This document shows, piece after piece, positions 20,516 to 58,893 of a DNA stretch of 64,000 nucleotides. The notes under the pieces are model-generated. The model had not been told where the DNA came from. It did no database searches and saw only the letters and a list, made by a program, of their open reading frames with translations. The position numbers and the translations under genes are program-made. Numbering within the stretch: the stretch's first letter is position 1; every line of letters starts with the position of its first letter. The DNA is from Bacteroides stercoris ATCC 43183 (GTDB lineage Bacteria; Bacteroidota; Bacteroidia; Bacteroidales; Bacteroidaceae): the NCBI RefSeq assembly GCF_025147325.1, contig NZ_CP102262.1:1116001-1180000 (forward strand), given 5' to 3'.

Positions 20516-21280
20516 TTAAACAATGATAAGCTCTATTCCGATTTCTTCGATAGACTGTGCCATTGCTTTGGATATTCCGGAATCTGTGATGATGACGTCT
20601 ACCCGATTGAGGTCACAAATCTTGCCGAAGCCTCTCCGTCCGAATTTTGAGGAATCAGCCAATATGATTGTACGCAGGGAAGCTTCTATCATTTTCTTAT
20701 TTAGATTAGCTTCTGCAATATTTGAGTTGGTGATTCCATGTTCCAAATCAATTCCGTCTACTCCCAAAAAAAGTTTGGAGCAGGTGATTTGTTCAAAAAG
20801 TTGTGAAGTATAATCGCCAATTACAGAACAGGAGTTTTTTCGGACAGTGCCTCCTAATTGGATAACTTCTATGTTATTGACCGCATTTAGCAATATGGCT
20901 GTTTTTAAAGAAGCAGTCACTACGATTAAATGTTCTATTGGAGTCAGTTGTTCAGCAAGCATGTGGACGGTTGATCCTGAAGCTATAATAATAGAGTCGT
21001 TTTTCTCTATTAGTTTGGCAGCGGCTATTGCGATTCTTTTCTTTTCGTTTGTTTGCAGCTTTTCTTTCTCTTGAACATTGATTTCTGGAGTTACGGGGTT
21101 AATGGGACTTGCGCTTCCATGAGTGCGGTAAAGCAGTTTCTTCTCTTCTAAATATTTTAGATCTTTCCGAATGGTAACGGGAGTGACCTCTAGATCTTTA
21201 GCGATATCATTTACTTTGATAAAGCCATTCCTGTTTAAACATTCAAGAATGTACTTATGTCTTTCTGCTATACTTATCAT
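20516..21280 (-). CDS. DeoR/GlpR-family transcriptional regulator (locus 1)
   Basis: A 254-residue regulator. The winged helix-turn-helix spans about residues 5-60, with VNDIAKDLEVTPVTIRKDLKYLEE as the DNA-reading part. The C-terminal sugar-phosphate sensing domain includes IIASGSTVHMLAEQL and FLGVDGIDLEHGIT, and ILADSSKFGRRGF as the typical DeoR end. It is a clear paralogue of the regulator at 49.4 kb. It is divergent from the phosphodiesterase gene, which points to local control by a glycerol phosphate or related compound; the effector is inferred. Confidence 0.9.
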   Translation of the reverse strand: MISIAERHKYILECLNRNGFIKVNDIAKDLEVTPVTIRKDLKYLEEKKLLYRTHGSASPINPVTPEINVQEKEKLQTNEKKRIAIAAAKLIEKNDSIIIASGSTVHMLAEQLTPIEHLIVVTASLKTAILLNAVNNIEVIQLGGTVRKNSCSVIGDYTSQLFEQITCSKLFLGVDGIDLEHGITNSNIAEANLNKKMIEASLRTIILADSSKFGRRGFGKICDLNRVDVIITDSGISKAMAQSIEEIGIELIIV

Positions 21281-21670
21281 TTGGAATTCTATTTTTTACA
21301 AAGGTAAACTAAATCTTAATAAGTAGCAAATGAAAGTTGTAAAAGTTTCATTATATGATATAAATTTCTACTTATCTCTTTTTTATTTCTAAAAACGAAA
21401 AAATATTTGCTTTTTTGTTGTGTTGTATTTCTTTTTATGTATTTTTGCAGTGTTTCTTCTTTCTCTTTATTTCGTATTTATGAAAAAATGAATAGAAATA
21501 AAAGAAAACGAAATAATCCGCACGCCTATGGCAGCATGTTAAAAGCAGAGAAATAGGAAAGTTGGATGTGATATTTATCATTAAACATTTTATTATGTTA
21601 TCCGACCTGTGTGGTGAGTAAGATTTGAATAATGAGTGGTTTGTTTAATGTAAAATTAAAAAATAGTACC
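21281..21670. promoter_or_regulatory. Divergent control region of glycerophosphate locus 1
   Basis: This 390-base AT-rich gap holds a minus-strand -7 box (TACCTTTG, 21299-21306) for the DeoR gene. A plus-strand -7 box (TATTTTTG, 21440-21447) has TGTTG 19 bases upstream as a possible -33. ACGAAA or its complement occurs at 21395-21400, 21470-21475 and 21508-21513, near the plus promoter; similar half-sites occur before glpA. No open frame of note is present, so the phosphodiesterase mRNA would have a leader of over 200 bases. Confidence 0.5.
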
Positions 21671-22576
21671 ATGAAAAACTATGCAAAGCTATTTAAAATG
21701 TCAATGGCTCTCCTTATGTTGGAAGGTCTGTTGGGAGTATCGGATTTGTCTGCACAGAATAAACTGAACACACTGAAATTTGATAAAACATCTCAGCTGA
21801 GAGACTTTTTTAGTTATAAAGGAGACGGAACGATACTGGTTAGCGGTCATCGTGGAGGATACGAGGTGGGCTATGCGGAGAACTGTATAGAAGGTCTGGA
21901 GAATGTTCTTACCCAAATGCCCGCTTTCTTTGAAATAGATCCTCGCCTGACTAAAGACAGTGTGATTGTACTAATGCACGATGCAACTTTGGATCGTACT
22001 ACCACAGGGAGAGGTAAGGTAAAGGACTATACATGGAAGGAACTTCAGTCGCTTCGTTTGAAAGATCATTCCGGCAAAGTGACAGACTGCCGCATTCCAA
22101 CTTTAGAAGAAGTTATTGTTTGGAGTAAAGGCAAAACAATAATCAATTTAGATAAAAAGGATGTTCCGATGTCTATGATCGCAGCTTTGATAAAAAAGCA
22201 TAAAGCGGAAAAACATGTAATGCTGACAGTGCATACAGGTGCACAGGCGAGGTATTATTACGACCGTTTTCCTGATATTATGATGTCTGTCTTTGCTCGC
22301 AACATGAAAGAGTTTGAAGATATATCAATTTCGGGTGTGCCTTGGGAAAACATGATTGCTTATGTTGGCCGCACTTTAACTCCGGAGAATAGTAAAATAT
22401 GCGAAATGCTTCATGCGCATGGAGTGCGTTGTATGATTAGTGTAGCACCTACGCATGACAAACTGCCTACTGTTGAAGAACGTGCGGCAAAATATAAGGA
22501 GGAGATTGACAAGAGGCCGGATATTATAGAATCGGATATACCGACGGAAGTGTGGAAGGTCTTGCACTCTCGGTAA
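21671..22576 (+). CDS. Glycerophosphodiester phosphodiesterase, exported (locus 1)
   Basis: A 301-residue GDPD-family enzyme that would split glycerophosphodiesters into a glycerophosphate and an alcohol. After a signal peptide ending near SDLSAQ, the catalytic residues are in VSGHRGGYEVGYAEN (His-Arg and Glu), FEIDPRLTKDSVIVLMHD (Glu, Asp and the second His) and ATLDRTTTGRGKV. INLDKKDVP follows in place of the usual ExK strand. There is no lipobox, so it is probably periplasmic. I start it at 21671 (MKNYAKLF) because the upstream extension carries no signal features. It leads the plus-strand gene set of locus 1. Confidence 0.88.
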   Translation: MKNYAKLFKMSMALLMLEGLLGVSDLSAQNKLNTLKFDKTSQLRDFFSYKGDGTILVSGHRGGYEVGYAENCIEGLENVLTQMPAFFEIDPRLTKDSVIVLMHDATLDRTTTGRGKVKDYTWKELQSLRLKDHSGKVTDCRIPTLEEVIVWSKGKTIINLDKKDVPMSMIAALIKKHKAEKHVMLTVHTGAQARYYYDRFPDIMMSVFARNMKEFEDISISGVPWENMIAYVGRTLTPENSKICEMLHAHGVRCMISVAPTHDKLPTVEERAAKYKEEIDKRPDIIESDIPTEVWKVLHSR

Positions 22577-22661
22577 TTGATTTGTCTTCCGGAAATAAAT
22601 ATCCCGGAGTTTGTGATAAAAATAACCTAATGGATAATTTAATAATAAGGAAATTATAAAT

Positions 22662-24002: not shown

Positions 24003-24015
24003 AATACGAAAGAAC

Positions 24016-25296
24016 ATGAAACAGGAGGGAATGACGCCTGAGGTGGCAAAGAAGTTTAAGTACTGGCAAACACGAACTATTATAGCAAGCATGATAGGCT
24101 ATGCTTTGTTTTATTTTGTTCGTAAGAACCTAAGTATAGCAATGCCTGCCATGCAGGAAGATTTAGGTATCACAAAAGGAGATTTGGGATTGTTCCTGAC
24201 ACTGCATGGGTTGCTGTATGGGGTTTCAAAGTTCGCTAACGGTTTTATTGGCGATCGTGTGAATGCACGCTATTTTATGGTGACAGGATTGGTGCTTTCC
24301 GCCGTTTGTAATATTTTGTTTGGATTTAGTTCCGCAGTGCTTGTATTTGGTGTTGTTTGGATGCTGAACGGCTGGTTTCAAGGGATGGGTTTTCCGCCTT
24401 GTGCTCGTTTGCTGACTCACTGGATTCCTCCTACGCAACTTGCAACCAAAATGTCCATATGGAATACTTCACATTCTATTGGTGCCGGCTTGGTGGTGAT
24501 AGTATGCGGATATATTGTTAGCCTTGGGTGGCGTTGGTGCTTTTGGTTTCCTTCCATTATTGCTTTGGTAGGTGCGGTGGGACTTTGGTTTGCTCTGCGC
24601 GACACCCCTCATTCTGTGGGTTTGCCAGAACTTAATCAAAAGGGAGCCGGCGAAGCTAAGGAAGAATCTTCCAAGGAGTTTAAGGCTTTTGTACGGAAAC
24701 ATGTTTTTGGAAACCCCACTATTTGGGTATTAGCCTTTGCTAATTTCTTTGTGTATATTGTCCGTTACGCTGTGCTCGATTGGGGACCTACCCTTTTAGG
24801 AGAATGGAAAGGCATCTCCATTCAACATGCCGGCTGGATGGTCGCTGCTTTTGAAATCTCCGGTATTTTGGGGATGTTGACGGCAGGTTGGGCGACAGAC
24901 CGCTTCTTTGGCGGACGCGGACCACGAGTTTGCGTGCTTTGTATGGCTTTGGCTACGGTGTTTATAGCTTTATTTTGGGGATTACAAGAACCTTCGATGT
25001 GGTTGGCTACATGTTTGCTCGGAGCTGCCGGATTCTGCATTTATGGTCCTCAGGCACTCGTTGGTATTGCTGCAGCCAATATAGCTACCAAAAAGGCGGC
25101 GGCTACGGCCGTTGGCTTTACAGGGTTGTTTGGTTATGCCAGTACGTTGGTTTCAGGTTGGGGATTAGGACTTTTGGCTCAACATTATGGTTGGGATGTA
25201 GCGGTCGGTGCGTTGATCTTAATAGCAGTTGTTGGTACTCTTATTTTTATGGCTGCATGGACGGCTAAAGCGAATGGATATGATGAAGGTAATTGA
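24016..25296 (+). CDS. GlpT/UhpT-type organophosphate:phosphate antiporter (locus 1)
   Basis: A 426-residue, 12-helix major facilitator protein. The helix-1 pattern GYALFYFVRKNLSIAMPAM carries the conserved Arg that binds phosphate in GlpT, and NGWFQGMGFPPCARLLTHW is the organophosphate antiporter signature; VRYAVLDWGPT follows in the second half. It is a distant paralogue of the transporter at 54.6 kb. It begins 13 bases after the dehydrogenase gene, so the two are surely cotranscribed. I infer import of glycerol 1-phosphate or another glycerol phosphate. Confidence 0.87.
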   Translation: MKQEGMTPEVAKKFKYWQTRTIIASMIGYALFYFVRKNLSIAMPAMQEDLGITKGDLGLFLTLHGLLYGVSKFANGFIGDRVNARYFMVTGLVLSAVCNILFGFSSAVLVFGVVWMLNGWFQGMGFPPCARLLTHWIPPTQLATKMSIWNTSHSIGAGLVVIVCGYIVSLGWRWCFWFPSIIALVGAVGLWFALRDTPHSVGLPELNQKGAGEAKEESSKEFKAFVRKHVFGNPTIWVLAFANFFVYIVRYAVLDWGPTLLGEWKGISIQHAGWMVAAFEISGILGMLTAGWATDRFFGGRGPRVCVLCMALATVFIALFWGLQEPSMWLATCLLGAAGFCIYGPQALVGIAAANIATKKAAATAVGFTGLFGYASTLVSGWGLGLLAQHYGWDVAVGALILIAVVGTLIFMAAWTAKANGYDEGN

Positions 25297-25308
25297 AGGG
25301 ATTGAAAA

Positions 25309-26151
25309 ATGGATATAAATGAAATAATATTGGAAAAGGTTCGCCGAGTGAAGCATGTAGCTTTAGATATGGATGGAACTATTTATAATGGAGGGACGCT
25401 TTTCCCTTTTACGATTGGTTTTTTAGATAAAATGAAGGAGCTGGGTATTGGCTATTCGTTTTTGACTAATAATCCTTCGAGAAGTACTAACGATTATTTG
25501 AAGCATTTGAATGACATGGGAATTAAGGCTTCAAAAGATGAGTTCTATACGTCAGCTCAGGCTACAATCGATTATCTCCGTTTGTATCGTCCTGATTGTA
25601 ATCGGCTTTTCATTTTGGGGACTCCAAGCATGATAAAAGAGTTTGAGGAGGCTGGGTTTGAGTCTACAATGGACGATGCAAATGATGAGCCGGATGCTGT
25701 TGTTGTAGGATTTGATATGTCCTTGGTATATTCGCGCTTGTGTCGTGCTGCGTGGTGGATTAATCAGAAGAAGTTTTATCTTGCGACTAACCCGGACCGG
25801 ATATGTCCGACTGATAAATCTTTGGTGCTGGTTGATTGCGGGTCTATTTGTTCAAGTTTGGAGCATGCTACCGGGCGAAAACCGGATATGGTTATCGGCA
25901 AGCCTGATCCTCGAATGTTGAACGGTATCATGGAGCGTCATAATCTGCAAGCTGAACAAATAGCTATGGTTGGTGATCGGATTTATACGGATATTCTTAT
26001 GGCACAGCGGGCAAACGCTCTGTCGGTGTTGGTTCTTTCAGGAGAGACAACGTATAAGGAGGCTGTGGCTCTTCAGCCTAATCCGGATTTGATTATGCGC
26101 GATTTGGCGGAATTTCAGGAAATGATTTTATTAGCACATAGTACGTTTTAA
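25309..26151 (+). CDS. HAD-IIA family phosphatase (NagD/AraL-like)
   Basis: A 280-residue haloacid-dehalogenase phosphatase. Motif I is LDMDGTIYNGG, motif II SFLTNNPSRS, and motif III/IV are KPDPRML and MVGDRIYTDILMA; the type IIA cap lies between II and III. Family members act on small phosphates such as glycerol phosphate, phosphoglycolate and sugar phosphates. It begins 12 bases after the transporter. In this context it may release glycerol from glycerol phosphate or remove toxic by-products; the B. subtilis AraL-AraM pair is the closest known parallel. Confidence 0.88.
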   Translation: MDINEIILEKVRRVKHVALDMDGTIYNGGTLFPFTIGFLDKMKELGIGYSFLTNNPSRSTNDYLKHLNDMGIKASKDEFYTSAQATIDYLRLYRPDCNRLFILGTPSMIKEFEEAGFESTMDDANDEPDAVVVGFDMSLVYSRLCRAAWWINQKKFYLATNPDRICPTDKSLVLVDCGSICSSLEHATGRKPDMVIGKPDPRMLNGIMERHNLQAEQIAMVGDRIYTDILMAQRANALSVLVLSGETTYKEAVALQPNPDLIMRDLAEFQEMILLAHSTF

Positions 26152-26209: not shown

Positions 26210-27244
26210 TTGTTACAGGCGGTTCAACCGCCTGTAACTTTTTTATTTAAGGCTTTGCAGATGAATATCTGGATGGGTGGTTCTAAGGTGGATGGGGCGG
26301 TTGGTATGATTGTCGATGAAATCATTCATTCGGATGCGGACATCATCTTTCTTAATGAACTGCGGGATTATCGGGGAGAAAATTTTATTTCTTATATGGT
26401 AAAGGAGCTGAACCGGCGTGGTTATACTTTTTATGGGAAGAACAGTCCTTTGTCAGTAGGAGTGCTGTCGCGCTTTCCGATTGATGAGCAGGAAACAGTC
26501 TATCCGCGTGTAAAAGGAGAAAAAGGTGCAATTTTGCGTGTATTGCTTACTGTTGTCGGTAGAAAAGTAACGGTGTATGCCGCTCATCTGGATTATCGGC
26601 ATTATGCTTGTTATCTACCCAGAGGATATAGCGGGAGTGATTGGAAAAAGATAGCTAAGCCTGTGTTGAATGAGGAGGATATCCTTGCAATGAATGGAAA
26701 GAGTGACCGGAAGAAAGCGGTTGAAGTTTTTTTGCAGCGAGTACGGTTGGACATTGAACAGAAACACACCATTCTACTGGCAGGTGACTTCAATGAACCG
26801 TCTCATTTGGATTGGAAAGAAGATACGAAAAAGTTGTGGGGACATAATGGGGCAATAGTGAATTGGGACTGTTCCCGTATGCTCTATGAGGCAGGTTTCA
26901 GGGATGCTTATCGTTCGGTTTATCCTAATCCCGTCACTCATCCGGGCTTTACGTATCCTGCCGGAAACAAATGTGCACCTGTGGCTAAACTGACGTGGGC
27001 GCCTGAGGCTGATGAACGAGAACGAATTGATTTTATTTATTATTACCCTTCCCCGTTTTTGGTTCCGGAAGAAGCTTGGATTGTAGGGCCTGTACATTCT
27101 GTTGTGAAAGGAAAAATGAAAAAGGAGAGGAGTTCGGATTGTTTTATTCGCCCTAAGAGAGGGTGGCCTACAGATCATAAAGCTGTGATGCTCTCTTTTC
27201 GCGTTTCTGGGCTACATTCGGAAAATCCTTGCAATATGAATTGA
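26210..27244 (+). CDS. Endonuclease/exonuclease/phosphatase (EEP) family phosphoesterase
   Basis: A metal-dependent hydrolase of the DNase I/sphingomyelinase-like fold. The motifs, in order, are LQMNIWMGG (Asn), IFLNELRDY (Glu), AAHLDYRHYACY, LLAGDFNEPSHLDW (Asp and Asn), ERIDFIYY and WPTDHKAVML (Asp-His). Many Bacteroides relatives are exported and act on phosphodiesters or phosphomonoesters other than DNA. The start is uncertain: 26210 is a TTG, 26261 an ATG that would cut the first strand, and the likely original start at 26155 is out of frame. A terminator-like hairpin overlaps the start. It is the last gene of locus 1. Confidence 0.75.
   Translation: MLQAVQPPVTFLFKALQMNIWMGGSKVDGAVGMIVDEIIHSDADIIFLNELRDYRGENFISYMVKELNRRGYTFYGKNSPLSVGVLSRFPIDEQETVYPRVKGEKGAILRVLLTVVGRKVTVYAAHLDYRHYACYLPRGYSGSDWKKIAKPVLNEEDILAMNGKSDRKKAVEVFLQRVRLDIEQKHTILLAGDFNEPSHLDWKEDTKKLWGHNGAIVNWDCSRMLYEAGFRDAYRSVYPNPVTHPGFTYPAGNKCAPVAKLTWAPEADERERIDFIYYYPSPFLVPEEAWIVGPVHSVVKGKMKKERSSDCFIRPKRGWPTDHKAVMLSFRVSGLHSENPCNMN
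26212..26244 (+). terminator. Intrinsic terminator-like hairpin at the 5' end of the EEP gene
   Basis: GTTACAGGCGGTT at 26212-26224 pairs perfectly with AACCGCCTGTAAC at 26226-26238 and is followed by six T. By form it is a strong rho-independent terminator for the HAD phosphatase transcript. It also lies inside the open frame of the EEP gene, where it encodes LLQAVQPPVTF. Confidence 0.75.
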
Positions 27245-27356: not shown

Positions 27357-29039
27357 TTATTTGGTCCTTATTTTACATAAGATGGCTGAAGTAGCGGGCA
27401 TTTGAAGGCGTGTTTCTCCTTTTTTTGTTTTAATCCAATAGCTGGAAGTTGTTCCTGCTAACCATTCAATCTTTGAGTTGTCCGGCAGGTTGACGGCTGT
27501 CTCCGCTTTTTGCCCGCTGGGGTTTAACGCGATGAAATATTGTTCATCGCCTATCCATCTCATGTATGCAAAAGGGTATGGCTGTTCTATGTCGCTAATA
27601 GCTTTCCAGTCGCCTCTTGTGCCAATCGCTGGTATGTTCTTTCTGACTTCCAGTAGAGTGCGTACATAATTCAAGATGGAAGTACGGTCGTTTTCTTGCG
27701 AGGCTACATTGGGGTAATTGTCGGCAGGGTCTATCGGCAAATAGATTTGGTTGGATGGTGCGGATGAAAATCCGGCGTTCAATCCTGTTTCCCATTGCAT
27801 GGGAGTGCGACAACTGCTTCTGTTGCGTGCGCTCTTACTCCCTTCTTTGTAAGGGGCTTCTTCCAGGTTTCTCATACCTATTTCTTCACCATAGTATATG
27901 ATGGGTGGCCAAGGCATAGTGAGAAAGAGGGTTAATGCTACTTTGAGTTCTTCCGGTGTGTTGCGTTGCAGGCGGTTCAGTCGCCATATGTCATGGCTGC
28001 ACGTAGGCATGGTGGCATATCCCAGGTTTCTGGTTGCTTGATATTCTTTGCCATAATTAGTTACAAACTCTTTGATTTGTCCATTGCCGGATTTGTCGAA
28101 GTAGCAGTTGTTTGGTTTTCCTTTGTCGTCTGTGTTGCAGACAAGGTTTCGGTATATTTTCACTCCGTTGTGAATAATAAGGTCGATGTTGAATCCAGCT
28201 TTGATAGCTTCATGCGGCATACTCCATTCCGACATCATGATTCCTTCCGGATATTTCTTGTTGAACCAGCTTAGGAGCTCGTCCCACAACTGCATGGTGG
28301 CTGTGTGGTTGCGGTCATCGCGTTTGATGAGGCTTTGTGCCATGTCTACGCGGAATCCGTCTACTCCTTTGTCCATCCAGAAAGCAATGATATTTTTCAG
28401 TTCGCGGCGAACAGCTTGTGGTCCGGGAGCATTGACGGACTGTTCCCAGGGATGGTTGGGATTGGGTTGGGCAAATCCGTAATTCAGTGCAGGTTGGCAG
28501 TCAAAGAAGTTTTTCATATAGTATCCGTTGCGTGCTGCGTCTGGTGCGTCTACGTACTTTTTGGGTTTTTGTTTTTTGTCGGTTGTCCAAATGTAGTAAT
28601 CACTATGTTGCAGGTTGGTATCAGTCTGCTTGGACTGTAAAAACCATGGATGCTTATCCGAGGTATGTCCAGCCACAAGGTCCAAACAGACTCGGATACC
28701 TTTGGAGTGTGCTGTCTGAATAAGTGCTGTCAATGTTTCGTTTTGACCAAACCGGGGATCAATACGGTAAAAGTCAGTGATGTCGTATCCGCCGTCCTTG
28801 AATTCGGAAGAGAAAATAGGGCTGAGCCAAATGGTGTTTACTCCGATTGAACGGATATAATCCAGTCTGGAGTGAATTCCTTTCAGATCTCCGATGCCAT
28901 TTCCGTCACTGTCTTGAAAGCTGCTGGGATATATATGGTATATGACTGCGTCTTTTAGCCATTCGGGACCTTTCTGCGAGAAAGCTTCGGTAGATAAAAT
29001 GAAGCATAATAGTAAAAATAATGTTTCTTTTGTTTTCAT
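27357..29039 (-). CDS. GH13 alpha-amylase-family enzyme, exported (first copy)
   Basis: A 560-residue glycoside hydrolase family 13 protein. A signal peptide ends near STEAFSQ. The four GH13 regions are DLVAGHTSDKHPW (region I, with the usual NH changed to GH), GFRVDMAQS (nucleophile Asp), MSEWSMP (acid/base Glu) and SHDIWRLNR (third Asp). Such sequences hydrolyse short alpha-glucosides or perform trehalose-synthase-like reactions; the exact substrate is not visible. It is a clear paralogue of the GH13 at 37.3 kb and is divergent from the lipoprotein/SusCD genes. Confidence 0.88.
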   Translation of the reverse strand: MKTKETLFLLLCFILSTEAFSQKGPEWLKDAVIYHIYPSSFQDSDGNGIGDLKGIHSRLDYIRSIGVNTIWLSPIFSSEFKDGGYDITDFYRIDPRFGQNETLTALIQTAHSKGIRVCLDLVAGHTSDKHPWFLQSKQTDTNLQHSDYYIWTTDKKQKPKKYVDAPDAARNGYYMKNFFDCQPALNYGFAQPNPNHPWEQSVNAPGPQAVRRELKNIIAFWMDKGVDGFRVDMAQSLIKRDDRNHTATMQLWDELLSWFNKKYPEGIMMSEWSMPHEAIKAGFNIDLIIHNGVKIYRNLVCNTDDKGKPNNCYFDKSGNGQIKEFVTNYGKEYQATRNLGYATMPTCSHDIWRLNRLQRNTPEELKVALTLFLTMPWPPIIYYGEEIGMRNLEEAPYKEGSKSARNRSSCRTPMQWETGLNAGFSSAPSNQIYLPIDPADNYPNVASQENDRTSILNYVRTLLEVRKNIPAIGTRGDWKAISDIEQPYPFAYMRWIGDEQYFIALNPSGQKAETAVNLPDNSKIEWLAGTTSSYWIKTKKGETRLQMPATSAILCKIRTK

Positions 29040-32073: not shown

Positions 32074-32083
32074 ATCTGATAAT

Positions 32084-37240: not shown

Positions 37241-37274
37241 TATTGATTGATGTTTGAATTATTATAGAAAAACA

Positions 37275-50505: not shown

Positions 50506-52110
50506 ATGATACTTAATAGCGAGATTAACGAATTTGACGTCATCATTGTTGGCGGAGGCGCAACCGGAGCAGGTACGGCAAGAGATTGCGCTTTGCGCGG
50601 AATGCGCGTTTTGCTTGTTGAACGCTTTGATTTTGCTGCCGGCGCCACCGGACGAAACCACGGTTTGCTTCACAGCGGCGCCCGTTATGCAGTGACCGAT
50701 AGAGAATCGGCAGCCGAATGTATTAAAGAGAATATGATTCTCCGGAAGATAGCACGCCATTGCGTAGAGGAAAACGGAGGTCTGTTTATCTCTCTTCCGG
50801 AAGACGACCTTTCATATCAAAACTTATTTGTAGAATCGTGCCGGGCAGCGGGTATCGATGCACAGGTAATCGACCCTGCAGAGGCGAGGTTGATAGAACC
50901 TTCGGTGAATCCTGCGATAATAGGTGCAGTGAAAGTGCCCGACGGTTCGATAGACCCTTTCAGACTGACGCTGGCAAATGTCATCGACGCCAAGGCTCAC
51001 GGTGCGAAAGTGCTGGTGTATCACGAAGTGACCGCATTGATTCAAGAGCAGGGAAGAGTTGTAGGAGTCACGGTACTTAATCATAAAACAAAAACCGAAC
51101 ATAATTATTACGCACCTCTGACTATAAACGCGGGTGGCATTTGGGGACATGGCATTGCTGCAAAAGCAGGCATAAGGGTGGACATGTTCCCGGCAAAAGG
51201 CTCGTTATTGATTTTTGGGCATCGAATCAATAATGTAGTGCTTAACCGTTGTCGTAAACCGGCTAATGCAGATATTCTTGTTCCTGGAGATACAATCTGC
51301 TTGATTGGAACGACTTCCAGCCGCGTGGGTTTTGATGAGGTGGATGATGTGCGGGTTACACCGGAAGAGGTGGATTTGCTGTTGTCGGAGGGCGAGAAAT
51401 TGGCTCCTGCTCTGGCTACAACCCGTATTTTGCGTGCATACGCCGGCGTTCGCCCGCTGGTGGCTGCCGATAATGACCCTTCCGGCCGTAACATCAGCCG
51501 CGGCATCGTGTTGTTGGATCACGAAGTGCGCGACGGTGTTCCGGGTTTCGTAACTATCACCGGCGGAAAACTGATGACATACCGGCTGATGGCGGAATGG
51601 GCCACAGACCTGGCTTGCAAGAAGCTTGGCATCGACAAGCCTTGCATTACAATGAACGACCCCCTTCCCGGTTCGCGCATGGAAGAGGATCGTTCGGGGG
51701 GCAAGCAGGTGGTGGCGGAACAACCAAAACGTTCTTCGGTAGGCCGTCACGGTGAAATGGCTGCCAGGATTGCATCGGAAAGCAAGTACGATAACAGCCT
51801 GGTTTGCGAATGTGAGGATGTGACCGTAGGTGAAGTGAACTATGCCGTGAACGAACTTGATGTGCACAACCTGATAGACTTGCGCCGCCGCACACGTGTC
51901 GGCATGGGTACGTGTCAGGGGGAACTCTGTGCCTGTCGTGCGGCAGGATTGCTGGGCGAGGCGCATAATTGCTCCCAAAAGGCGAAAGAGGATTTGGCTT
52001 CGTTCCTGAACGAACGCTGGAAAGGATTGTATCCTGTGGCATGGGGCGAGGCGCTGCGCGAAAGCGAATATACCCAGTGGATATATGGTGGAGTTTGTGG
52101 AATGGAATAA
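50506..52110 (+). CDS. glpA: Anaerobic glycerol-3-phosphate dehydrogenase, subunit A
   Basis: The FAD-binding catalytic subunit that oxidises sn-glycerol 3-phosphate to dihydroxyacetone phosphate. The Rossmann motif DVIIVGGGATGAGTARDCAL lies at about residues 11-30, the FAD/substrate region is GATGRNHGLLHSGARYAV, and a C-terminal BFD-like [2Fe-2S] domain has CECEDVTVGEV and TCQGELCACR, as in E. coli GlpA. The start is the ATG at 50506, right before the domain. It leads a tight glpABC group: 11 bases to glpB, 4 to glpC. Confidence 0.94.
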   Translation: MILNSEINEFDVIIVGGGATGAGTARDCALRGMRVLLVERFDFAAGATGRNHGLLHSGARYAVTDRESAAECIKENMILRKIARHCVEENGGLFISLPEDDLSYQNLFVESCRAAGIDAQVIDPAEARLIEPSVNPAIIGAVKVPDGSIDPFRLTLANVIDAKAHGAKVLVYHEVTALIQEQGRVVGVTVLNHKTKTEHNYYAPLTINAGGIWGHGIAAKAGIRVDMFPAKGSLLIFGHRINNVVLNRCRKPANADILVPGDTICLIGTTSSRVGFDEVDDVRVTPEEVDLLLSEGEKLAPALATTRILRAYAGVRPLVAADNDPSGRNISRGIVLLDHEVRDGVPGFVTITGGKLMTYRLMAEWATDLACKKLGIDKPCITMNDPLPGSRMEEDRSGGKQVVAEQPKRSSVGRHGEMAARIASESKYDNSLVCECEDVTVGEVNYAVNELDVHNLIDLRRRTRVGMGTCQGELCACRAAGLLGEAHNCSQKAKEDLASFLNERWKGLYPVAWGEALRESEYTQWIYGGVCGME

Positions 52111-52121
52111 AATGAATAAAG

Positions 52122-53366
52122 ATGAAATTTGATACTTTAATAGTAGGTGGGGGGCTTGCCGGTCTGACGTGTGGCATCCGTTTGCAGAAGAATGGCGTGA
52201 AGTGTGCTATCATTTCCACCGGACAAAGTGCATTGCATTTTTCTTCCGGTTCATTCGATTTGCTCAACGAACTGGCCGACGGGACAAAGGTGGATAATCC
52301 GCTTGCGGCTGCCGGCAGGGTTGGCGCAAATCACCCCTACGCCAAGCTGGACGGTAAGTTTGCATATTATGTCCGTGAGGCGAAACAGTTGTTCCTTGAT
52401 TGCGGTATTGAAGTGAACGGTGATGCGGAACGTAATCATTTGCGTATAACTCCGATGGGCACGTTGAAGCCGACGTGGCTGACGTTCTCCGACTTCACGC
52501 AACTTTCATCGCCCCATGATATAGCAGGCAAGAAAGTGCTGGTGGTCAATATAGCCGGATTTCTTGACTTCAATACGAAGTTTGTAGCCGACAGTTTTGA
52601 GAAGTGCGGTGCTGAATGCCGTATATCTTCTATCAATCTTCCCGAACTGGAAAGATTGCGGATTAGTCCGACGGAAATGCGTTCCACCAATATTGCCAGG
52701 GTTCTGGAGAATGACAAAACGCTTGAGACTTTAATCAGGGAGTTGGCCGGAAAGGTATCCGGCTTCGACAGCGTTGCTTTGCCGGCTGTATTCGGACTGT
52801 CGTCTGCCGCACCGGTAAGAAAGCTGAAAGAAGCGTTGGACATTCCGGTATGGCTGATTCCGACAATGCCGCCCTCTGTGCCGGGCATCCGTGCACAGCA
52901 ACAGCTACGCCGTTCTTTTGAAGCGCTGGGCGGAGTCTATATGCTGGGCGATACGGTAGTGAAAGCCGACTTCAAAGGCAATAGAGTGCAGGCGGTGTAT
53001 TCCGTCAATCATGGAGATATCTCGTTTGTGGCGGAAAACTTCGTGCTTGCTTCCGGCAGCTATTTCAGCAATGGACTGGTGGCGCGGCCGGACAGTGTTA
53101 TCGAACCGGTTTTTGGCAGTGATGTGGATTTTACGGCGGGCCGCGACAGTTGGTATGACAAATCGTTCTTCAACAAGCAGAATTATATGACGTTCGGTGT
53201 GGCCACCGACGCCAAGTTGCGGATAAAGATTAAGGGTGAAGTGCAGCAGAACCTGTTTGCAGCAGGTTCGGTACTGAGCGGCTCTAATACGATACATGAA
53301 GGTTGCGGTGCCGGTGTTTCCATGCTTACGGCATTGTTTGTAGCGGATAACTTAATAAAAGGATGA
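52122..53366 (+). CDS. glpB: Anaerobic glycerol-3-phosphate dehydrogenase, subunit B
   Basis: A 414-residue flavoprotein subunit with the nucleotide-binding start FDTLIVGGGLAGLTCGIRLQ and a second FAD segment near the end (NLFAAGSVLSGSNTIHEGCG). GlpB sits between GlpA and GlpC in the membrane-associated complex. The length matches E. coli GlpB and the gene order is the standard one. Confidence 0.92.
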   Translation: MKFDTLIVGGGLAGLTCGIRLQKNGVKCAIISTGQSALHFSSGSFDLLNELADGTKVDNPLAAAGRVGANHPYAKLDGKFAYYVREAKQLFLDCGIEVNGDAERNHLRITPMGTLKPTWLTFSDFTQLSSPHDIAGKKVLVVNIAGFLDFNTKFVADSFEKCGAECRISSINLPELERLRISPTEMRSTNIARVLENDKTLETLIRELAGKVSGFDSVALPAVFGLSSAAPVRKLKEALDIPVWLIPTMPPSVPGIRAQQQLRRSFEALGGVYMLGDTVVKADFKGNRVQAVYSVNHGDISFVAENFVLASGSYFSNGLVARPDSVIEPVFGSDVDFTAGRDSWYDKSFFNKQNYMTFGVATDAKLRIKIKGEVQQNLFAAGSVLSGSNTIHEGCGAGVSMLTALFVADNLIKG

Positions 53367-53370
53367 CGTC

Positions 53371-54624
53371 ATGAATATGCAGCAGAATAATATAAGCGAA
53401 AACAATTTTGAGCAATGTATCAAGTGTACGGTCTGTACGGTATATTGTCCGGTTATTCCGGTGAATCCCGAGTATCCCGGTCCGAAGCAGGCCGGTCCGG
53501 ATGAGGAGCGTCTTCGCTTGAAGAGAGGCGAATACTTTGATGAGGCGTTGAAATATTGTCTGAACTGTAAACGCTGTGAAGTGGCTTGCCCGTCGAATGT
53601 GAAGATTGGCGACATTATCCAGTTGGCGCGTATCAAATACAGCAAGAAGAAACCGGCATTGCGCGATATTATGCTGGCAAATACGGATTTCGTAGGAACC
53701 ATGGCATCTGCCTTTGCTCCCATTGTGAATACCACATTGTCTCTGAAGCCGGTGAAAATGGTAATGGACGGAGTCCTGAAGATAGACCATCATCGTGTGT
53801 TCCCGAAGTATTCTTCCCAGACATTCGAGAGCTGGTTCAAAAAGAATGCGATGGCTTCGCAGGATAATTACAAGAAGCATGTAAGTTTTTTCCACGGCTG
53901 TTATATCAACTATAATTTCCCTCAGTTGGGCAAAGATATGGTAAGCGTGCTTAATGCAATAGGCTATGGAGTGCATTTGCTTGAAAAGGAGAAGTGCTGC
54001 GGAGTGGCTTTGATTTCCAACGGCTTGATCAATCAGGCACGTAAGCAGGCTGAGGCAAATCTCCGTTCAGTCCGTAAGTCGGTCTTTGAGGATAAGCGTC
54101 CGGTCATCGGAGCTTCATCGACTTGTATTTTCACGATGCGCGACGAATACCCGCATCTGCTTGGCATTGACAATGCGGACGTACGCGACAGCATAGAACT
54201 GGCTACCCGGTTCATATTCCGTCTGCTCGAAGAGGGAAACGTAAAACTGAAATTCCGTGATGACGTGAAGATGAAGATTGCCTATCATACTCCTTGCCAC
54301 ATGGAAAAGCTTGGTTGGGCGTACTATTCCATCGCTTTGTTGCGCAGTATTCCCAATATAAACCTTACCGTGCTCAATTCCCAATGTTGCGGAATTGCGG
54401 GTACATACGGCTTTAAAAAGGAGAATTACGAAACATCGCAGGGAATTGGCGCTTCGCTGTTCCGGCAGATAGAAGAAGTGGCTGCCGACTTTGTCGCTAC
54501 CGATTGCGAAACTTGCAAATGGCAGATTGAAATGTCCACTTCGGCAAAGGTGAAGCATCCCATTTCGATACTGGCAGAAGCGCTCGACCTGGAAGCAACC
54601 CGTAAATTAAACAGTGATAAATAA
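53371..54624 (+). CDS. glpC: Anaerobic glycerol-3-phosphate dehydrogenase, subunit C
   Basis: The iron-sulfur, membrane-anchoring subunit that passes electrons to menaquinone. Two [4Fe-4S] clusters are bound by C16-x2-C19-x2-C22-x3-C26 and C63-x2-C66-x2-C69-x3-C73. Two CCG-type domains follow (KCCGVALISNG and QCCGIAGTYGF, with CETCKWQ). At 417 residues it is normal. Electrons probably go on to fumarate reductase, the usual anaerobic sink in Bacteroides, by inference. Confidence 0.93.
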   Translation: MNMQQNNISENNFEQCIKCTVCTVYCPVIPVNPEYPGPKQAGPDEERLRLKRGEYFDEALKYCLNCKRCEVACPSNVKIGDIIQLARIKYSKKKPALRDIMLANTDFVGTMASAFAPIVNTTLSLKPVKMVMDGVLKIDHHRVFPKYSSQTFESWFKKNAMASQDNYKKHVSFFHGCYINYNFPQLGKDMVSVLNAIGYGVHLLEKEKCCGVALISNGLINQARKQAEANLRSVRKSVFEDKRPVIGASSTCIFTMRDEYPHLLGIDNADVRDSIELATRFIFRLLEEGNVKLKFRDDVKMKIAYHTPCHMEKLGWAYYSIALLRSIPNINLTVLNSQCCGIAGTYGFKKENYETSQGIGASLFRQIEEVAADFVATDCETCKWQIEMSTSAKVKHPISILAEALDLEATRKLNSDK

Positions 54625-54648
54625 TATTATTCTTAAAATCGTAGTACT

Positions 54649-56046
54649 ATGTGGAATTTTTTAGCACCACCTGCTCATAAGCAGGAATTACCGGCAGAGA
54701 AGATTGATTCGGCGTATAAGAGTTACCGTTGGCAAGTCTTCCTGGGTATATTTATCGGTTACGCAGGTTTTTATATCGTGCGTAAGAACTTCTCGATGGC
54801 CATTCCGGAACTTGCCCAGTTTGGTTTTGAAAAGGGCGAGCTGAGTATCGTTCTCTCTATGAATGCCGTAGCTTATGCTTTGTCCAAGTTTCTGATGGGA
54901 AGCGTGTCCGACCGCAGTAACGCACGTGTATTTCTTCCGTTAGGATTGGTTTTGGCTGCCGTGTCCATGATGTTTATGATTGTGCCGGTGCAGTTCTTCG
55001 GCCCGGAACAGAAATCACTGGCCATTATCGTAATGGCTGTTTTAAATTTCCTGGTAGGTTGGTTCAACGGTATGGGATGGCCTCCTTGCGGACGTGTCAT
55101 GACCCACTGGTTTTCGGTGACCGAACGCGGAACGATGATGTCCATCTGGAATTGTGCCCATAATGTGGGCGGTGCATTGGTCGGCCCGATGGCAGTTTAC
55201 GGTGCGTTGTGGTTCGGTTCCTGGTTCTATGGTGCCGACGCATCCCGTTACTTCCTCATCGGTACGTATGTATTCCCGGCAGCGGTGGCTATTCTTGTAG
55301 CGTTGGTGGCATATTGCCTGATTCGCGATACCCCTCAGTCTTGCGGGCTTCCCACTATTGAGAAATACCGTAACGACTATCCTAAAAACTATAGCGAGAA
55401 GCAGGAAGAAGTGCTTACTGCAAAGGAGATTTTCTTCAAGCACGTATTCAACAACAAGATGCTTTGGTACATTGCTATTGCCAATGCTTTTGTCTACATG
55501 GTACGTTACGGATGTCTCGACTGGGCTCCTACTTTCCTGAAAGAAGCTCAGGGATATGATATCAAGCAAGCCGGCTGGGCATACTTTGCCTATGAATTTG
55601 CTGCAATCCCCGGAACATTGGTTTGCGGCTGGTTGAGTGACAAAGTATTTAAAGGCGGACGCGCAATGACTACTATCATCTTTATGGCTATCGTTGCCTT
55701 GTTCATCTTCCTTTATTGGCAGTTCTCCGATAACTATATAGTCGTAACCTTGTCTCTGATTGCTATCGGTTTCTTTATCTACGGACCGGTAATGCTGATC
55801 GGTGTTCAGGCGCTCGATCTTGCTCCCAAGAATGCCGCAGGTACGGCTGCCGGACTTACCGGGTTCTTCGGGTACTTCTTCGGAACCGCCATTCTTGCCA
55901 ACGTCGTTCTCGGTTACGTAGCCGAAATGGCAGGCTGGGATTGGACGTTCATACTGCTGCTTATAGCTTGCGCCCTGTCAATTATTCTGATGTCCTTTAC
56001 CTATAAGGACGAAAAGGCATTGCTTGCAGAAAGAAATAAAAAATAA
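54649..56046 (+). CDS. glpT: Glycerol-3-phosphate:phosphate antiporter
   Basis: A 465-residue major facilitator protein. GYAGFYIVRKNFSMAIPEL holds the GlpT helix-1 Arg, NGMGWPPCGRVMTHWF is the organophosphate antiporter signature, and MVRYGCLDWAPTFLKEA matches GlpT in the second half. It is closer to E. coli GlpT than the locus 1 transporter is. It starts 24 bases after glpC. Confidence 0.93.
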   Translation: MWNFLAPPAHKQELPAEKIDSAYKSYRWQVFLGIFIGYAGFYIVRKNFSMAIPELAQFGFEKGELSIVLSMNAVAYALSKFLMGSVSDRSNARVFLPLGLVLAAVSMMFMIVPVQFFGPEQKSLAIIVMAVLNFLVGWFNGMGWPPCGRVMTHWFSVTERGTMMSIWNCAHNVGGALVGPMAVYGALWFGSWFYGADASRYFLIGTYVFPAAVAILVALVAYCLIRDTPQSCGLPTIEKYRNDYPKNYSEKQEEVLTAKEIFFKHVFNNKMLWYIAIANAFVYMVRYGCLDWAPTFLKEAQGYDIKQAGWAYFAYEFAAIPGTLVCGWLSDKVFKGGRAMTTIIFMAIVALFIFLYWQFSDNYIVVTLSLIAIGFFIYGPVMLIGVQALDLAPKNAAGTAAGLTGFFGYFFGTAILANVVLGYVAEMAGWDWTFILLLIACALSIILMSFTYKDEKALLAERNKK

Positions 56047-56103
56047 TCTTTTTAAGATAATATAGAATGACATTAAACCAGTATTTACCTTAAAAATTGA
56101 ACT

Positions 56104-57516
56104 ATGTCGAAGAATCCAATCAAATTAAGTGCAACCTTGTTAGGTATGGCCTTAGTAGCTTTCACTTCCTGTGAAGATCAAGATTTTACAGATGTGAATA
56201 ACGATGCAACACGTGTTGAAGTAAACACAATCTCTGCCGAAATGGCAAAAGTGCGCGACTATGTACCCCCTTATGCTGTAATGGCTCACCGCGGTTCTAC
56301 TTTCTGGGCTCCGGAAGAAACGGAATCGGCCTGGCGCTGGGCACGCGAAATGGGTGCGGACTACCTCGAATCCGACCTTCAGTGTACGAAAGACGGTGTT
56401 ATCCTTGCCAATCACGATGACAACCTGAAGCGTACCACTAATATTGAAAATGTATATAGCGAACTGGTTCCGGCAACCCGTAAGGCGTTCTATATGCGTC
56501 ATGGAATGAGTGAGGCGGAAGCCGAAAAACTTGTAGAAGCCGATAAAGCAAGTTTCCGTCCTTACTATGCAATGTCTTACATGTATGAGGAGTTGCTTGC
56601 ACTCGATGCCGGCAGTTGGTTTAATGAAACAAGCATTGAGCAGGCTCGTGAGTCGTTTTCCGAACAACACCAGTATATCTCGGCTCTTGAAGACCAAATC
56701 CGTTACGCCGAAGGAAAAATGCTGAAGCGTGATGTTAACGGTGAACGCATATACACTGTTACCGGTACTTGGAATCCGGATAAACCCCGCGACTGTCTGA
56801 CATATAAATTTGAATATGTGGATGATCCGCAGGATACAGGCAACCGTCCGGGTGTCTATATTGAATTCAAAGAGTCTTGGCTGAACCCTTCGGACTTTGA
56901 AAAGCGCGTTTACAATAAACTTGACGAACTTGGTTGGAACATCATTACCAAACCTTGCGACGGCGAACCGTTCTATAAGAATAATAAAGTAAATGTCGGT
57001 AATACCAACGGTAAGGTCATTCTCCAGACATTCTCTCTCGAAAGCCTTCGCCGTACGGCAGAAGAATTCAAAGGCAAAATTCCTATGTGCTTCCTGTTGT
57101 GGGAAGGTAACGGCGCTACCGACCTGAAACACGATACTCCTCAGGGTTATGCTTCTTTCATTAATCTCGGTTTGGAATACAAGGCTCATATCATCGGTCC
57201 TTGCATCGCAGGCGCTCCCAACGACTATCCGGAAATGAATGCTCCGTGGCAGGCCTATCTTATCAAGAAATCCGGTATGCTCAACCATCCGTACTCATTC
57301 GATTCTTATGCGCAAATGGGAAAATATTTCGGTCAGTACAACTGGGGAAATACAGTACAATATGATGAGCTCCTGCATGGCATCTATGGCGACGGTCTGT
57401 TTACCAACCGTTCTGAAATGAGCTTGAAATACTTAATTGACAACGGTCTGCGTAAGGCTCCGGCTCCTCAGACAGTGCCGGATGCTGTTGAAACACTTAA
57501 GAGACTTGGTTACTAA
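56104..57516 (+). CDS. Glycerophosphodiester phosphodiesterase, lipoprotein (locus 2)
   Basis: A 470-residue GDPD enzyme anchored as a lipoprotein (lipobox FTSC, Cys about residue 22). The catalytic parts are MAHRGSTFWAPEET, YLESDLQCTKDGVILANHD and KRTTN. Two extra segments set it apart from the usual 300-residue form: about 45 residues between KRTT and LDAGSWF, and about 40 residues (around 195-240) before PGVYIEFKESW. The locus 1 enzyme lacks both. It supplies glycerol 3-phosphate to GlpT. Confidence 0.9.
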   Translation: MSKNPIKLSATLLGMALVAFTSCEDQDFTDVNNDATRVEVNTISAEMAKVRDYVPPYAVMAHRGSTFWAPEETESAWRWAREMGADYLESDLQCTKDGVILANHDDNLKRTTNIENVYSELVPATRKAFYMRHGMSEAEAEKLVEADKASFRPYYAMSYMYEELLALDAGSWFNETSIEQARESFSEQHQYISALEDQIRYAEGKMLKRDVNGERIYTVTGTWNPDKPRDCLTYKFEYVDDPQDTGNRPGVYIEFKESWLNPSDFEKRVYNKLDELGWNIITKPCDGEPFYKNNKVNVGNTNGKVILQTFSLESLRRTAEEFKGKIPMCFLLWEGNGATDLKHDTPQGYASFINLGLEYKAHIIGPCIAGAPNDYPEMNAPWQAYLIKKSGMLNHPYSFDSYAQMGKYFGQYNWGNTVQYDELLHGIYGDGLFTNRSEMSLKYLIDNGLRKAPAPQTVPDAVETLKRLGY

Positions 57517-57549
57517 TTAATTTATTAACACTAATACAGATTATATTAT

Positions 57550-58893
57550 ATGAAAAAGTATATTTTAATGCCGGTATTGGCTGCATTGTCACTGTCAGGA
57601 TCGGTTGCCCAAGCCCAGGACTTTGATAATAAGCCGGTTGTTAATGTAAGCAACTCCAAGGAGAATCTGAACTTTACGATTGGCGCACGTTTTATGATGG
57701 ACGGTGCATACTATCATTCGGATTTCACTCCGGTGAAATCGGGAGCTGCTATTACCGATGCGCGCATCCGTACCTCTATGAGCTATGAAGACTGGTACTT
57801 CTATGCCGATTTCGACTTTTCCAAAGGCAAGTTCTCACAGAAGAATATCTTCCTGCAATACTCGCTGGAAGGTGTAAAAGGTACTCATCGCTTTAAAGCC
57901 GGTTATTACAACAATCCGGCATCCATGGCAAACAATACCAGCCGCGGAAGCCTGCACTTCATTTCCCGCTCGGCGGCAGCCAACGCTTTCTCACCGTCAC
58001 GTGAGCTGGGTTTGAGTTATATTTTCTACAACAACCACTTCTTCGCCAATCAGGGTGTATTTGCCGAGAACAAGTACAACGACCAGCCGTCGGGATATCA
58101 GGGCATGTCATTCGGCGGCCGTTGGGTATGGCGTCCCATTAATAACGAAGACAGAACATTCCACGTAGGAGCAGCTTTCCGTTATGCCAATATCGCTACG
58201 GGTGTGGTGGAGAACAACGTATTGAAAACAGAACTGGATCTCGGTTCTTCATTGGAAACTTACGTAGATGCTACTCAGGACTTCCTGTCTGCCAAACTGC
58301 CGTGGGCGAAGAATGTATTTGATGTAGGTGCTGAATTCTTATACAAGACAGATAACTTCTTTACCCGTGGTGAATATATGTACAAACATGTTACCAAAGA
58401 ACGTGACGACCAGGCATTGTTCGAAGCTAATCTGGGTTCTATCGACTCTTGGGGTTCACTCGAAGCATGGCAGAAAGGTAATCCGCTTGGTGAGAACTCT
58501 TTCCACGGAGCTTATATCGAAGCCGGTTACAAAATCTTCGGTGATCCGTATCAATACAGCAATTCCGATGCTTTGTTGAAAGGCTTGAACGGAAGAGCGC
58601 TTGAAGTGGTTGCCCGTTATAGTTATACCGGTCTGAATGACCTCGTTGAAGGCGAGAAATATATTCCCGGACGCGACCAATACTATCCCAACGGTATATT
58701 GGCAGACTATCCGGCTACATCATTAAGTGTCGGTGGCGGTAACATGCACTCCGCTACTTTGGGTGTAAACTACTCTTTCAACAAGTTTGCCCAAGTAATG
58801 TTGAGCTACACTTACAATCGTCTTGACCGTGACAAGTTCCAATATGACAAGAACTTCCACGTGCTCCAGGCCCGTCTGATGTTCCAATTCTGA
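57550..58893 (+). CDS. OprP/OprO-type porin
   Basis: A 447-residue outer-membrane beta-barrel. The signal peptide ends near GSVAQAQ, the first strands are NLNFTIGARFMMDGAYYHSD, and the last is FHVLQARLMFQF, ending in Phe as barrels do. Related porins take up phosphate or polyphosphate. Its place after the phosphodiesterase suggests it admits glycerophosphodiesters or glycerol phosphates. Locus 1 has no such porin. Confidence 0.85.
   Translation: MKKYILMPVLAALSLSGSVAQAQDFDNKPVVNVSNSKENLNFTIGARFMMDGAYYHSDFTPVKSGAAITDARIRTSMSYEDWYFYADFDFSKGKFSQKNIFLQYSLEGVKGTHRFKAGYYNNPASMANNTSRGSLHFISRSAAANAFSPSRELGLSYIFYNNHFFANQGVFAENKYNDQPSGYQGMSFGGRWVWRPINNEDRTFHVGAAFRYANIATGVVENNVLKTELDLGSSLETYVDATQDFLSAKLPWAKNVFDVGAEFLYKTDNFFTRGEYMYKHVTKERDDQALFEANLGSIDSWGSLEAWQKGNPLGENSFHGAYIEAGYKIFGDPYQYSNSDALLKGLNGRALEVVARYSYTGLNDLVEGEKYIPGRDQYYPNGILADYPATSLSVGGGNMHSATLGVNYSFNKFAQVMLSYTYNRLDRDKFQYDKNFHVLQARLMFQF

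Follow-up and report, generated by a model that had tools for sequence, protein, structure and literature searches.

Two glycerol-phosphate loci and their uptake genes

The window, i.e., the whole stretch of 64,000 nucleotides of the Bacteroides stercoris ATCC 43183 genome analysed here, carries two gene sets related to glycerol-phosphate metabolism, namely locus 1, organised around an AraM-like dehydrogenase of the sn-glycerol-1-phosphate (G1P) family, and locus 2, organised around GlpABC, the anaerobic sn-glycerol-3-phosphate (G3P) dehydrogenase (Table 1). A previous sequence-only reading had described two loci with parallel parts at 20516-27244 and 49394-58893, i.e., in each a DeoR regulator, a glycerophosphodiester phosphodiesterase (GDPD), a transporter and a dehydrogenase; the open reading frames (ORFs) were found at those coordinates and their domains were confirmed with Pfam and NCBIfam, from which all protein families were assigned, while the signal peptides of the window proteins were judged by eye. 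The paralogy of the two regulators is likewise upheld, DeoR1 and DeoR2 being 52% identical over 248 residues.

From its family assignments, locus 2 is best read as a conventional G3P system, where GlpA, GlpB and GlpC are three adjacent subunits all above curated cut-offs (GlpA also scoring 901 bits against a further curated cut-off of 425). Regarding the GlpT-type antiporter formerly attributed to both loci, the attribution holds reasonably for locus 2, whereas the transporter of locus 1 (MFS1) is closer to TIGR00881 (366 bits) than to the GlpT model TIGR00712 (306.6; cut-off 632.55), below the cut-off in both cases, and is 38% identical to its counterpart over 442 residues. As both transporters fall below the TIGR00712 cut-off, they are called GlpT-like (locus 2) and OPA-family (locus 1) in what follows.

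The surroundings of AraM were surveyed in the best 80 of 222 relatives, the named loci being fetched (L numbers) and neighbours mapped by tblastn within a radius of 8 kb, or 10 kb for relatives of SusC and SusD; 27 of these loci have less than 5 kb of sequence on one side and 53 have at least 5 kb on both, and the list is incomplete in that a B. faecalis locus, found later, is absent from it. A relative of the OPA transporter (>40% identical) lies near AraM in 62 of the 80 loci, as does the HAD phosphatase (62/80), and a GDPD resembling one of the window in 24, a figure that is too low, as other GDPDs are present in L069, L086 and L122. In L014-L016, the AraM operon is preceded by orthologues of DeoR1 (85-86% identical).

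The description of locus 1 as a parallel diester system proved incomplete, for the locus does not stop at 27244 but runs on, as a SusC/SusD uptake unit, to about 37144. In B. faecalis, one contiguous cluster comprises an S15/CocE-type hydrolase, DeoR1 (86% identity), a GDPD1 remnant, AraM (82%), the OPA transporter (90%), HAD (76%), the endonuclease/exonuclease/phosphatase (EEP) family phosphoesterase (65%), propeller lipoproteins, the Ig-like lipoprotein (69%), SusC (86%) and SusD (75%); AraM and the end of SusD are some 13.5 kb apart, and an IS1595-type transposase stands between two propeller lipoproteins. SusCD, being contiguous with AraM there, is taken as part of the unit, whereas the glycosidases, of which the cluster has no relative (neither GH13 nor GH36), look added in this strain; unit 1 is thus delimited as 20516-37144, the GH13/GH36 genes (27357-29039 and 37254-41112) being set apart. 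Their candidacy as core parts was rejected on the same ground and because a GH13 relative occurs in only one AraM-centred locus (L058), and a GH36 relative in none. The two GH13 enzymes, of related families, stand on opposite strands within 12 kb, and the relative in L058 adjoins AraM.

Beyond B. faecalis, relatives of SusC (46-60% identical) and SusD (44-53%) accompany AraM in L017, L023, L049, L050, L052, L067 and L076, and a SusD relative in L082 and L088 as well, weaker or partial matches in other AraM loci being left out of this count. Compared with the own genome, SusC of L023 matches the window SusC at 1469 bits (runner-up 444) and SusD of L076 the window SusD at 687 bits (runner-up 146). 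Relatives of the propeller lipoprotein lie near AraM in L014, L015, L076, L082 and L088, and those of the Ig-like lipoprotein in L017, L023, L049, L050 and L076. As such, adjacent SusC and SusD genes are inherited together with degradative enzymes, in the manner of a polysaccharide utilization locus, and the natural substrate of locus 1 is probably larger than a simple glycerophosphodiester.

Cleavage of phosphoesters is a theme shared by the genes around SusCD. In the order sample (393 genomes, the own genome included; G numbers), distant SusD relatives (40-48%) occur in 14 other genomes; among the 11 distant SusCD loci examined, from nine of those 14 genomes and from the genomes of L018 and L068, six have EEP-family or GDPD genes nearby. 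An EEP-family gene adjoins SusD in L095, L096 and L097 and lies one gene further in L101, while GDPD-like genes are found in L100 and L102 (6.5 kb away in the latter); L099 has neither, L098 ends at a contig edge, and the neighbours in L094, L120 and L121 were left out of the scan. These EEP proteins are of the same Pfam family as that of the window, yet without any tblastn match between them. Metallophosphoesterases accompany SusCD in the AraM-linked loci L017, L049, L067 and L088 (scanned) and L082 (by clustering).

At the margins of the unit, the S15/CocE-type hydrolase stands beside DeoR1 in L014-L016 (about 640 residues in L014) and near it in B. faecalis. In the window, an IS transposase (DUF772/DDE_Tnp_1_6; 18432-20087) separates DeoR1 from the hydrolase (16779-18416), which has 545 residues and has apparently lost its 5' end at the IS. 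With a second transposase (DUF4372/DDE_Tnp_1) at 41183-42385, 3' of the GH13/GH36 genes, the extended unit 1 sits between two IS elements.

Table 1. Coordinates of the genes and sites discussed, with the family evidence
Feature	Position	Strand	Basis or remark
DeoR1 regulator of locus 1	20516..21280	-	PF00455/PF08220
Putative DeoR1 operator	21494..21513	+	Box AAGAAAACGAAA at 21502-21513; position weight matrix (PWM) 21.9 bits; upstream of GDPD1
GDPD1, glycerophosphodiesterase with predicted export	21671..22576 (ORF from 21632)	+	PF03009; leader by eye from ATG 21671
AraM-like G1P dehydrogenase, 446 residues	22662..24002	+	PF13685; NF002022 top match, below cut-off
OPA-family organophosphate transporter (proposed G1P:Pi antiporter)	24016..25296	+	TIGR00881/TIGR00712, below cut-off
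HAD-IIA phosphatase	25309..26151	+	TIGR01460, above cut-off
EEP phosphoesterase	26210..27244	+	PF03372; no in-frame signal peptide (by eye)
GH13 alpha-glucosidase-like enzyme	27357..29039	-	PF00128; no counterpart in B. faecalis cluster
Second putative DeoR1 operator	29249..29268	-	PWM 20.3 bits; upstream of propeller/uptake operon
Beta-propeller-like surface lipoprotein	29399..30529 (ORF from 29138)	+	Weak PF21311, below cut-off; lipoprotein start by eye at 29399
Ig-like/CarboxypepD-type lipoprotein	30574..32073	+	Weak Pfam matches
SusC TonB-dependent transporter	32060..35359	+	Best own-genome match of L023 SusC
SusD substrate-binding lipoprotein	35375..37144	+	Best own-genome match of L076 SusD
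GH13	37254..38957	+	Closest solved relatives oligo-1,6-glucosidases; relative in L058
GH36 alpha-galactosidase	38965..41112	+	No relative in AraM-centred loci
DeoR2 regulator of locus 2	49394..50179	-	82% orthologue in L112
GlpA, anaerobic G3P dehydrogenase subunit A	50407..52110 (ORF extent; start may be downstream)	+	TIGR03377, 797 bits (cut-off 552.8)
GlpB	52122..53366	+	TIGR03378, 464 bits (cut-off 174)
GlpC	53371..54624	+	TIGR03379, 640 bits (cut-off 280)
GlpT-like G3P transporter	54649..56046	+	TIGR00712, 594.4 bits (just below cut-off 632.55)
GDPD2, GlpQ-like phosphodiesterase	56104..57516	+	PF03009; lipoprotein leader by eye
Phosphate-selective porin O/P family	57550..58893	+	PF07396; same position in L111, L112
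GDPD1 C-terminal remnants in three Bacteroides relatives	L014 9662-9974; L015 9903-9974; L119 7600-7907		

The AraM family and its pairing with G3P dehydrogenases

AraM matches Fe-ADH_2 (PF13685) at 123.6 bits, and its nearest solved relatives in a sequence search are the G1P dehydrogenase chains 9h4x, 4rgq, 4rfl and 5fb3. Residues D132, H259 and H279, which we take to be the metal ligands, are invariant in 81 of 81 aligned sequences of the family, where the motif SRPASGAEHxFSH, common to 4rgq, is mostly invariant too. At the family level, AraM is thus assigned to the G1P dehydrogenases, from which its stereochemistry would follow; an oxidising direction is presumed. The earlier opposition of G1P-type and G3P-type dehydrogenase families therefore stands as to the families, with the reservation that AraM scores below the cut-off of the equivalog model for G1P dehydrogenase, for which reason it is named AraM-like and not an EgsA equivalog.

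The two dehydrogenase classes are physically joined in a number of relatives. A G3P dehydrogenase lies within 8 kb of AraM in 23 of the 80 loci (17 GlpD-like and six GlpABC), in Bacteroidota and Verrucomicrobiota, and in 16 of the 53 loci having at least 5 kb on both sides; as a rough estimate, chance would bring two such dehydrogenases so close in a genome of about 4 Mb in some 1% of cases. The best NCBIfam matches of six GlpD-like proteins are G3P dehydrogenase/oxidase families, at 281-338 bits against a dehydrogenase cut-off of 360. The gene orders are diverse, i.e., GlpABC-GlpT divergent from AraM-OPA in Bacteroides (L070, L073, L122 and L123, of which L122 has a confirmed GDPD as well; L124 repeats the L073 place, its OPA gene lying in two frames), AraM-OPA-HAD-GlpABC-GlpT in Parabacteroides L024, GlpABC-AraM-OPA-HAD-GlpT in L063 and L068 of the same genus, and GlpT-GDPD-AraM-OPA-HAD-GlpD in Verrucomicrobiota L086, of which L084 is a rearranged version. 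On the AraM tree, for labelled rows only, each label (GlpD-like or GlpABC) needs three changes, two of them forced by starred branches; together with the differing gene orders, this is taken as repeated joining of AraM with a G3P dehydrogenase. Besides the locus 1 core, each of the genomes of L014, L015, L016 and L070, which are the four nearest relatives in Bacteroides, has a second AraM-OPA pair, with GlpABC-GlpT in divergent orientation to it.

Seven genomes of the order sample have a close AraM (60-100% identical), two more having remote relatives at 29%, and GlpB occurs in 11 including the own genome; this Bacteroidales search gave an overlap of AraM and GlpB (Fisher p 0.014) that is made up of two genomes, G000 and G019. 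Among the five other close-AraM genomes, G006, G088 and G278 carry a GlpD-like gene beside AraM or its DeoR, and no GlpD-like gene was found in the stretch examined around AraM in G205 and G337; the own genome has no GlpD-like match besides GlpA. GlpB is present in eight of the 18 AraM-bearing genomes reached through fetched loci; four of the 18 had been picked for GlpABC adjoining AraM, and without them the count is four of 14, one of these four, the L043 genome, looking identical to G019. Physical joining of both dehydrogenase classes is what use of both glycerol-phosphate enantiomers predicts, and hence supports it; the former proposal that the strain uses both is strengthened in this respect, while action of AraM on G1P is itself deduced from its family.

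Some members of the family stand in other surroundings. Nine L027-like loci, mostly from Pedobacter, have a conserved phosphoribulokinase/uridine-kinase-like protein directly upstream of AraM (Pfam-checked in L027), and in eight of them a LysM protein (checked in L047) lies next to it. AraM relatives of Thermoguttaceae (Planctomycetota; L071, L078 and L092) have no detected neighbours from locus 1 or 2 of the window, and in L058, a metagenome-assembled genome, AraM is apparently split in two ORFs (10001-11335). An FGGY-type kinase cluster member is found in L025, L076, L087 and L093, an RbtT/DalT-type transporter in L025, L076 and L093, and a transketolase in L093; these four loci suggest that the AraM family has a branch related to polyols or sugars.

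Phosphodiesterases and operator-like sites

The two GDPDs appear to belong to different types. They share a weak identity of 27% over 109 residues only, GDPD1 having a predicted Sec-type leader and GDPD2 a lipoprotein leader, and their closest solved chains are 3mz2 for GDPD1, and 4r7o and GlpQ 5t91 for GDPD2. According to the part of PMC7086022 available, Bacillus subtilis GlpQ is limited to sn-3 substrates by a hydrophobic wall formed of Phe190, Tyr259 and Phe279, and is unable to cut lipoteichoic acid (LTA), a polymer of glycerol 1-phosphate (Gro1P). At the corresponding places, GDPD2 carries QTF, HPYS and LFTN, whereas GDPD1 and its orthologues have TVHTG, MIS or MVS, and ESD instead of the QxF, HPY and FTN of the GlpQ type; the comparison is one of motifs, the profile alignment of GDPD1 with GDPD2 not having covered the C-terminal half. 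Read by motif, GDPD2 would thus keep the features tied to sn-3 specificity and GDPD1 would not, a difference in the expected direction. GDPD2 scores 51 bits against a cut-off of 254 for PRK11143, and its relative in L112 has HAWS at the Tyr259 motif. At motif level (MAFFT), four Verrucomicrobial GDPDs encoded beside AraM share [LM]DxKx[VI] with GDPD1.

GDPD1 and the EEP phosphoesterase vary from locus to locus. In the relatives where GDPD1 is broken, remnants consist of pieces, in two frames, of roughly the last 135 residues (L014 and B. faecalis) or of the last 24 residues (L015). A leader peptide is present on EEP in L014, L015, L016 and B. faecalis; the window is the reverse of the remnant-bearing relatives, GDPD1 being whole and EEP having no leader in frame. 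By eye, GDPD1 or EEP, if not both, has kept its export signal in every one of these loci, which suggests overlapping roles for the two enzymes. In the region 26157-26260, a short leader-like ORF stands ahead of the EEP gene of the window in another frame, beside T-runs, suggesting a frame disruption, slippage or a sequence error at the 5' end of the gene. In two Bacteroides species, EEP and a propeller protein form one ORF (L014 and L015, 13490-15610).

Concerning regulation, motif sampling over 29 upstream regions adjoining DeoR genes (two of the window, the other 27 of relatives) yielded an A-rich motif of 20 bases, and a matrix was built from 23 relatives only, at the positions so sampled. 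The best and second-best matches of this matrix in the whole window are the sites at 21494 and 29249, ahead of the two operons of unit 1; dinucleotide shuffles of each region scored as well in 0 of 300 cases for the former and 7 of 300 for the latter. Two of the six copies of the core AAGAAAACGAAA in the 4.0-Mb genome are at these operator-like sites, and of the remaining four, one falls within a GDPD paralogue. No convincing DeoR1 box was found at locus 2, where the best score is 12.8 (27 of 300 shuffles as good), and a search for palindromic motifs yielded nothing coherent.

Interpretation and comparison with known systems

We consider it probable, with a confidence only a little above even, that two units for the dissimilation of glycerol phosphate, opposite in enantiomer type, lie in the window, unit 1 being a SusCD-linked phosphodiester uptake locus. 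In unit 1, surface lipoproteins and SusCD would capture and import a phosphodiester-linked oligomer bearing glycerol phosphate, from which phosphodiesterases with predicted export (here GDPD1 and/or EEP; EEP in the nearest relatives) would release G1P; the OPA transporter would carry G1P into the cytoplasm, AraM would oxidise it to dihydroxyacetone phosphate with NAD+, HAD-IIA may dephosphorylate a by-product or an excess pool, and DeoR1 would repress both operons. In unit 2, porin O/P, the GlpQ-like GDPD2, the GlpT-like transporter and the quinone-linked GlpABC would handle G3P. There seems, then, to be one gene set per mirror-image glycerol phosphate, the set for the rarer form being part of a surface uptake system.

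Several findings weigh against this interpretation. Of the four nearest relatives, only L016 has a whole GDPD1, whereas L014, L015 and B. faecalis have a broken remnant, so that this enzyme is not a fixed core of the unit and may not be its essential enzyme; our confidence was slightly lowered on that account. The genomes of L014-L016, three close relatives, have no SusD at E<=1e-80, which makes the uptake part dispensable, and two of the four nearest relatives are devoid of SusCD as well as of a whole GDPD1. AraM reaches 178.7 bits against the cut-off of 413 of NF002022, the NCBIfam equivalog for G1P dehydrogenase, even though this is its best match. As many as 57 of the 80 AraM loci have no G3P dehydrogenase within 8 kb (among the 80, 27 have a side shorter than 5 kb), and close AraM and GlpB co-occur in only two of the seven close-AraM genomes of the order sample. 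As for the operator-like sites, motif positions in the relatives were sampled jointly with the window sequences, and the A-rich motif is not enriched genome-wide, the six copies of AAGAAAACGAAA comparing with seven for a reversed control, hence only the placement of the sites is notable.

The function of AraM admits other explanations. As far as the available parts of PMC13400652 and PMC5059525 go, the characterised AraM of Bacillus subtilis is placed in the synthesis of G1P for ether lipids, and PlsY takes both enantiomers and PlsC both forms of lysophosphatidic acid (PMC13400652). The enzyme of the window might likewise make G1P for archaeal-type or heterochiral lipids, with incidental neighbours, which appears improbable considering that those neighbours are phosphodiesterases with predicted export, an organophosphate transporter and SusCD. 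The ether-lipid role was tested through PcrB. This prenyltransferase uses G1P and has a match in 231 of the 393 order genomes (228 above cut-off), i.e., in two of the seven close-AraM genomes versus 229 of the 386 others (p 0.13, not significant); the own genome has no match, which weakens such a role. Alternatively, AraM could act on another phospho-polyol (arabitol, ribitol or other) released from a phosphoglycan, for instance a teichoic acid of the polyol-phosphate type, with no link to G1P. Its score below the G1P dehydrogenase cut-off, an RbtT/DalT-type polyol transporter near AraM in 12 of the 80 loci and FGGY kinases in L025 and L076 (Pfam-checked) point that way, and some relatives may indeed handle another polyol; for the window, this is nonetheless rather unlikely given the frequency of OPA transporters and G3P dehydrogenases around AraM, the largely invariant motif SRPASGxEHxFSH of G1P dehydrogenases, and GDPDs that by family are glycerol-phosphate enzymes.

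A further possibility concerns the nutrient rather than the enzyme. Both loci could serve one compound, namely glycerophosphoglycerol derived from phosphatidylglycerol, GDPD2 cutting at the sn-3 end and GDPD1 at the sn-1 end, and SusCD and the glycosidases then forming a separate neighbouring locus for alpha-glucans or galactosides. The loci L086 and L122, in each of which one GDPD accompanies both dehydrogenases, fit one diester yielding both enantiomers, and GH13/GH36 are typical of dietary alpha-glycoside breakdown; yet in B. faecalis, where GH13/GH36 are absent from the cluster, AraM forms one contiguous stretch with SusC, SusD and both lipoproteins, SusCD relatives recur near AraM in the seven loci listed above, and the operator-like box is common to both operons of unit 1, so that we regard the single nutrient as doubtful. 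Under the two-unit interpretation, LTA is the preferred candidate substrate of locus 1. To our knowledge, it is the most abundant G1P polymer in the gut, and it bears alpha-glucosyl and alpha-galactosyl groups, which GH13 and GH36 would fit. Tentatively, locus 1 may thus be a locus of the polysaccharide utilization type for LTA or another poly(sn-glycerol-1-phosphate) of Gram-positive neighbours, where GH13/GH36 of this strain would strip these groups so that phosphodiesterases reach the chain, and phospholipid headgroups or wall teichoic acid would supply locus 2 with the sn-3 enantiomer; if so, Bacteroides would harvest both mirror-image types of teichoic acid.

A conserved module of G1P and G3P dehydrogenases, present in more than one phylum, would point to a role for the bacterial relatives of AraM, which are at present treated chiefly as lipid enzymes, and its SusCD-linked form, if true, would mean that gut Bacteroides feed on glycerol-phosphate polymers of their Gram-positive neighbours. 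In the open-licence literature, subscription papers thus not being covered, no bacterial catabolic route for G1P and no description of a pair of G1P and G3P loci or of a teichoic-acid uptake locus appeared among the matches listed; the main text of PMC10117117 does not contain the term for G1P dehydrogenase, and the single mention of G1P in PMC10132767 is as a binding control.

As regards known systems, glycerophosphodiesters are handled in Escherichia coli by the glpTQ-glpABC regulon, which locus 2 resembles in GlpABC, a GlpT-like transporter, a GlpQ-like GDPD and a DeoR-type regulator, with a porin in addition; locus 1, by comparison, has AraM in place of GlpABC and a GDPD of another clade in place of the GlpQ type. 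In Bacillus subtilis, the HAD phosphatase gene araL belongs with araM to the arabinose operon. The window has a similar association of an Fe-ADH-type relative of G1P dehydrogenase with a HAD-IIA phosphatase but adds phosphodiesterases with predicted export, an OPA transporter, DeoR and SusCD, with no arabinose-pathway gene among the annotated neighbours. With the sn-3-specific teichoicase GlpQ, as depicted in the available part of PMC7086022, GDPD2 shares, as far as motifs can be read, those of Gln188/Phe190, Tyr259 and Phe279, which GDPD1 lacks. Finally, locus 1 is akin to the polysaccharide utilization loci of Bacteroidetes in its SusC/SusD pair, its surface lipoproteins and its hydrolases with predicted export, and differs from them in that its core hydrolases are phosphodiesterases, its regulator is of the DeoR family and its product would feed glycerol-phosphate metabolism.

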